Positions 8,771 through 12,841 of a DNA stretch of 44,397 nucleotides are shown here, one piece after another. Under the pieces are notes generated by a model. That model saw only the letters and a list, made by a program, of their open reading frames with translations, was not told the origin of the DNA and did not search any database. Numbering within the stretch: position 1 is the first letter of the stretch; the number at the start of each line of letters is the position of its first letter. The stretch covers positions 1 to 44,397 of the forward strand of contig NZ_CALFBQ010000011.1 in assembly GCF_937951745.1 (NCBI RefSeq), in the 5' to 3' direction. This DNA comes from an uncultured Chloroflexus sp. (lineage in GTDB: Bacteria > Chloroflexota > Chloroflexia > Chloroflexales > Chloroflexaceae). The position numbers and the translations under genes are program-made.

Positions 8771-12841
<4,071 letters not shown>

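Follow-up and report, generated by a model that had tools for sequence, protein, structure and literature searches.

The window, a 44,397-nucleotide stretch of the genome of an uncultured Chloroflexus sp. (NZ_CALFBQ010000011.1, positions 1 to 44,397), carries on its plus strand a frame of 2094 codons (8786-15070) that is followed by TAA and codes for a secreted protein in which a pullulanase is joined to a GH13 alpha-amylase of animal type. The frame has no frameshift and a lone internal stop at codon 1352, an in-frame TAG at 12839-12841 (the window sequence at the site is CCATAGTGG); translation showed that 8786-12841 and 12842-15070 belong to the same single frame. The genome (G000; genus Chloroflexus) is a draft of 4.25 Mb in 94 contigs, estimated to be 99.39% complete, and a single copy of the fusion gene was found in it.

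All features of the gene lie on the plus strand. The first open part (8786-12841) begins with a GTG at 8786 with CGAGG upstream and comprises a signal peptide (judged by eye), N-terminal modules, a complete GH13 pullulanase, a linker module, and the start of an alpha-amylase barrel (~50 residues). The pullulanase (9554-12220) belongs to the pullulanase-type alpha-1,6-glucosidases of TIGR02103, with Pullulanase_N2, CBM_48, and Pullul_strch_C; its score of 878.9 bits exceeds the curated cut-off of 697.6, and the match covers profile positions 4 to 899 of 900. The animal-type alpha-amylase domain is represented before the stop by an N-terminal fragment (12683-12838), and alignment places the TAG at the first Trp of the WWxRYQPV motif. 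By residue counts along the amylase alignment, this Trp corresponds to Trp58 of the salivary enzyme, an active-site residue in that family. The barrel is thus cut after ~50 residues, in agreement with a preliminary description of this DNA, according to which the first product ends within the first barrel strands. Three codons 5' of the stop, an Ala codon (12830-12832) stands where five Chloroflexus relatives have Asp; this position is variable or gapped among more distant homologues.

The second open part (12842-15070) continues in the same frame with the remaining barrel and its catalytic residues, followed by the C-terminal domains. It contains the 3' portion of the Pfam Alpha-amylase catalytic domain (12878-13276), an all-beta Alpha-amylase_C domain (13946-14230), a Flg_new_2 domain (divergent InlB B-repeat; 14255-14461), Thr/Ala/Pro-rich repeats, and a terminal IYIPLIMR. 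When the frame is translated through the stop, its amylase part aligns with the human salivary and porcine pancreatic enzymes, with E values down to 5.1e-103; with a residue placed at the stop, both barrel and C-domain are aligned, and the WWxRYQPV motif and a catalytic Asp/Glu/Asp set are present, the catalytic residues and their roles being assigned as is usual for this family. As first proposed, the GH13 catalytic regions are preserved on either side of the TAG, but the stop at 12839-12841 denies the gene the uninterrupted frame through both catalytic domains that a functional two-enzyme protein would need. The length of the repeat tail (~14480-15040) varies greatly from species to species, and at the DNA level the tail can be aligned with G007 in several overlapping registers.

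Seven other genomes of the genus were examined, and five of them (G002, G003, G004, G006, and G007) have the same fused gene as one open frame; intact orthologues of this kind are what would be expected around a young pseudogene. These open frames span 1946 to 2161 codons, that of G003 ending at a contig edge, and all five read TGG TGG where the window reads TAG TGG; this alignment of close relatives at the codon, which had been suggested earlier, bears out the proposals that the two halves form one frame and that the TAG replaces the first Trp of the motif. No copy was found in G001 (82% complete) or G005 among the eight Chloroflexus genomes. G007, which matches C. islandicus, is the closest relative among the genomes compared. 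Of 110 homologous loci, several of which are duplicates from the same genome, 100 (including the window) align over the site and 10 do not align there; the 99 loci other than the window have Trp-Trp in 93 cases, Tyr-Trp in three, Trp-Tyr in two, and Pro-Ala in one. A pullulanase and an amylase are also fused in an Anaerolineae MAG (L071), in a frame of at least 1936 codons, and the architecture is therefore not confined to Chloroflexus. Among the papers listed in literature searches none concerned this gene; one, PMC4350410, mentions both Chloroflexus and amylopullulanase.

We then considered how long the stop could have been in place. A codon model run with our own script on six Chloroflexus sequences, with a fixed tree and long branches so that its limits are rough, gave an omega 3' of the stop (539 codons) of 0.046 on this branch versus 0.048 in the background, and an omega 5' of the stop of 0.053 versus 0.057 elsewhere; an omega of 1 for the tail was rejected by ~25 log-likelihood units, with w0 = 0.08 at the 95% limit. 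The relaxed selection 3' of the stop that would be expected only of an old stop was not seen, and a rough reckoning from these sequences suggests that neutral evolution may fill at most about 3% of the G000 branch. Where the other five sequences are all identical, G000 alone differs at 22 of 990 sites 5' of the stop and at 4 of 388 sites 3' of it; the Asp-to-Ala change three codons from the stop is one of the 22. Since purifying selection has acted on the tail at full strength in this lineage, the stop is either very young or a base-call error, and the earlier view that the change is recent or tolerated is upheld by the tail omega and the intact relatives. Fourfold-site divergence from G007:C47 (window 8960-14600) is uneven, at ~0.4 to 0.6 over the first third, 0.16 to 0.24 across ~350 codons 3' of the stop, and again 0.30 to 0.47 towards the end; NG86 dS against G007 is 0.87 before the stop and 0.43 after it, several NG86 pairs being saturated. 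Recombination with the G007 lineage may have produced this unevenness.

A sequencing or assembly error, behind which the real gene would be intact and encode the full pullulanase-amylase, fits the conservation of the tail equally well: one base would suffice as the explanation, the tail has evolved just as a functional one would, no second lesion occurs in the 2094 codons, the genome is a draft in 94 contigs, and another change unique to G000 (Asp to Ala) is three codons away. A comparison of 1.24 Mb of G000, the window included, with 839 reference ORFs taken from 1.2 Mb of G004 yielded 155 orthologues (62,430 residues) with three flagged stops and, by the criteria used, no frameshifts. The only clean nonsense codon among them is the TAG at 12839-12841. 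Inspection by eye led us to discard the other two flags, as the one on C71 sits upstream of the likely start and the one on C73 lies in a partial second copy of a sigma-factor-like gene. With no frameshift and no other clean nonsense codon detected there, a poor consensus is less likely, and isolated nonsense mutations are common among bacterial genomes, so that an error, while a real alternative, is in our judgement unlikely. In the opposite direction, G000 proteins compared with G004 DNA gave 159 orthologues for 897 queries and three raw flags. On C73, the sigma-factor-like gene (identified by eye; 51489-52067) is followed by the near-identical partial copy at ~52600-52960 (L289, G000:C73:40001-60000), in which a Trp codon has become TGA, another Trp-to-stop change in G000.

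The preliminary description had left mutation, error, and recoding open, and of these it is recoding that loses its footing. Among the 29 window ORFs taken as likely genes, 8 end in TAG, as do 38 of the 142 frames that reach 500 codons or more in the 839 kb of G000 scanned, and an RF1 gene is present (506 bits). A search for a suppressor, as had been suggested, found no CUA anticodon among 48 tRNA matches, all typed by ARAGORN, in this 99.39% complete genome, whose gaps could still hide such a gene; a PylS search of G000 gave no match, whereas the control genomes gave some match in 13 of 14 cases, one of them over the cut-off. With RF1 not missing and neither a CUA tRNA nor PylS found, G000 lacks the marks of a genome with a recoded or suppressed amber codon, nor does TAG recur inside conserved genes, with one clean case in 155 orthologues. 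Special decoding of TAG in G000 therefore finds no support in the tests run, and mutation and error remain. A codon-usage scan of 839 kb for split genes was set aside as evidence because it missed the target itself, whose scores fell below the threshold; of its four candidates, three have an ATG at most six bases past the stop, and the fourth (on C30) lacks one.

Tolerated or programmed read-through of the UAG, which would yield a minority of full two-enzyme protein and otherwise pullulanase alone, would agree with a tail that is intact and under purifying selection and with a frame kept to its natural end. Besides the presence of RF1 and the failure to find a suppressor tRNA, it is opposed by the five relatives, which have no stop here and hence no ancestral read-through to conserve, and by the nature of the residue, as a near-cognate insertion would displace an almost invariant Trp. 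According to PMC5373646, the base following a stop codon influences termination. No unusual RNA structure was predicted in the 150 nt 3' of the stop, for which z = -0.43 and 62 of 200 shuffled sequences folded equally well or better. We regard read-through as very improbable, and still more so the variant in which the newly arisen stop would act as a dose switch, useful read-through giving mostly secreted pullulanase with a minority of full-length pullulanase-amylase and its tail. As a general caution, a conserved frame with one stop in it is not evidence for recoding.

Fission of the gene, with the second half translated alone from an internal start, could draw on the in-frame GTG at 12860, the ATG at 12920, and later candidates. 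By eye, none of the in-frame starts 3' of the stop has a convincing Shine-Dalgarno sequence (the GTG at 12953 has GGGG upstream), in keeping with the initial observation that the second half has neither a start signal nor a signal peptide, and a product begun at any of them would leave out the signal peptide and the first barrel strands. Among 12 homologous loci inspected, 11 are unfused (some being duplicates of one genome), and their frames open 93 to 434 codons before the motif. An independent second half is, on these grounds, hardly credible.

The explanation we favor, and consider probable, is that a nonsense mutation arose very recently in a Chloroflexus gene for a pullulanase-amylase fusion. 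A TGG-type Trp codon of the amylase domain would have become TAG shortly before the present; the stop would be very young because the tail was under purifying selection for nearly the whole time since the split from the closest relative compared, and the TAG is known from one genome. Translation would end at 12841, and the product would be a secreted pullulanase lacking the amylase and the C-terminal tail, probably still active; the 3' part would go untranslated and would be expected to decay in the future. If the mutation is real, a starch protein with two enzymes is seen here shortly after the second of them was lost, and the genus is one in which no copy at all was found in two of eight genomes.

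The loss of the amylase half is probably tolerable, and the gene appears to be one that Chloroflexus can do without, since those two Chloroflexus genomes show no copy and G000 has a second pullulanase (contig C19, 51% identical). A search of G000 found no further close relative of this amylase, and amylase of this type may therefore be lost there. A separate relative of the amylase occurs in G001, G002, and G007, on frames of 610 to 629 codons. A GH13 cluster on C47 resembles intracellular alpha-glucan metabolism (identities assigned by eye). Directly downstream of the fusion gene, beginning 46 bases past the end of the amylase frame, lies a metal-uptake ABC cassette (window 15117-18177) with a ZnuA-type binding protein, an ATPase, and an ABC-3 permease, and a polar effect of the stop on this cassette is conceivable.

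Compared with known systems, the window's gene resembles the intact Chloroflexus fusions of G002, G003, G004, G006, and G007 in domain order, catalytic residues, and sequence around the site (84 to 93% identity), but those genes have Trp-Trp and one open frame where the window has a stop. With the animal-type GH13 alpha-amylases it shares the barrel and C-domain, the WWxRYQPV motif, and the catalytic Asp/Glu/Asp, whereas the copy in the window sits behind a pullulanase and is broken at the Trp58 position. Strain-specific nonsense pseudogenes are a known phenomenon in bacteria, and the gene in the window shares with them a lone in-frame stop, a conserved remainder, and intact relatives, with no apparent difference.
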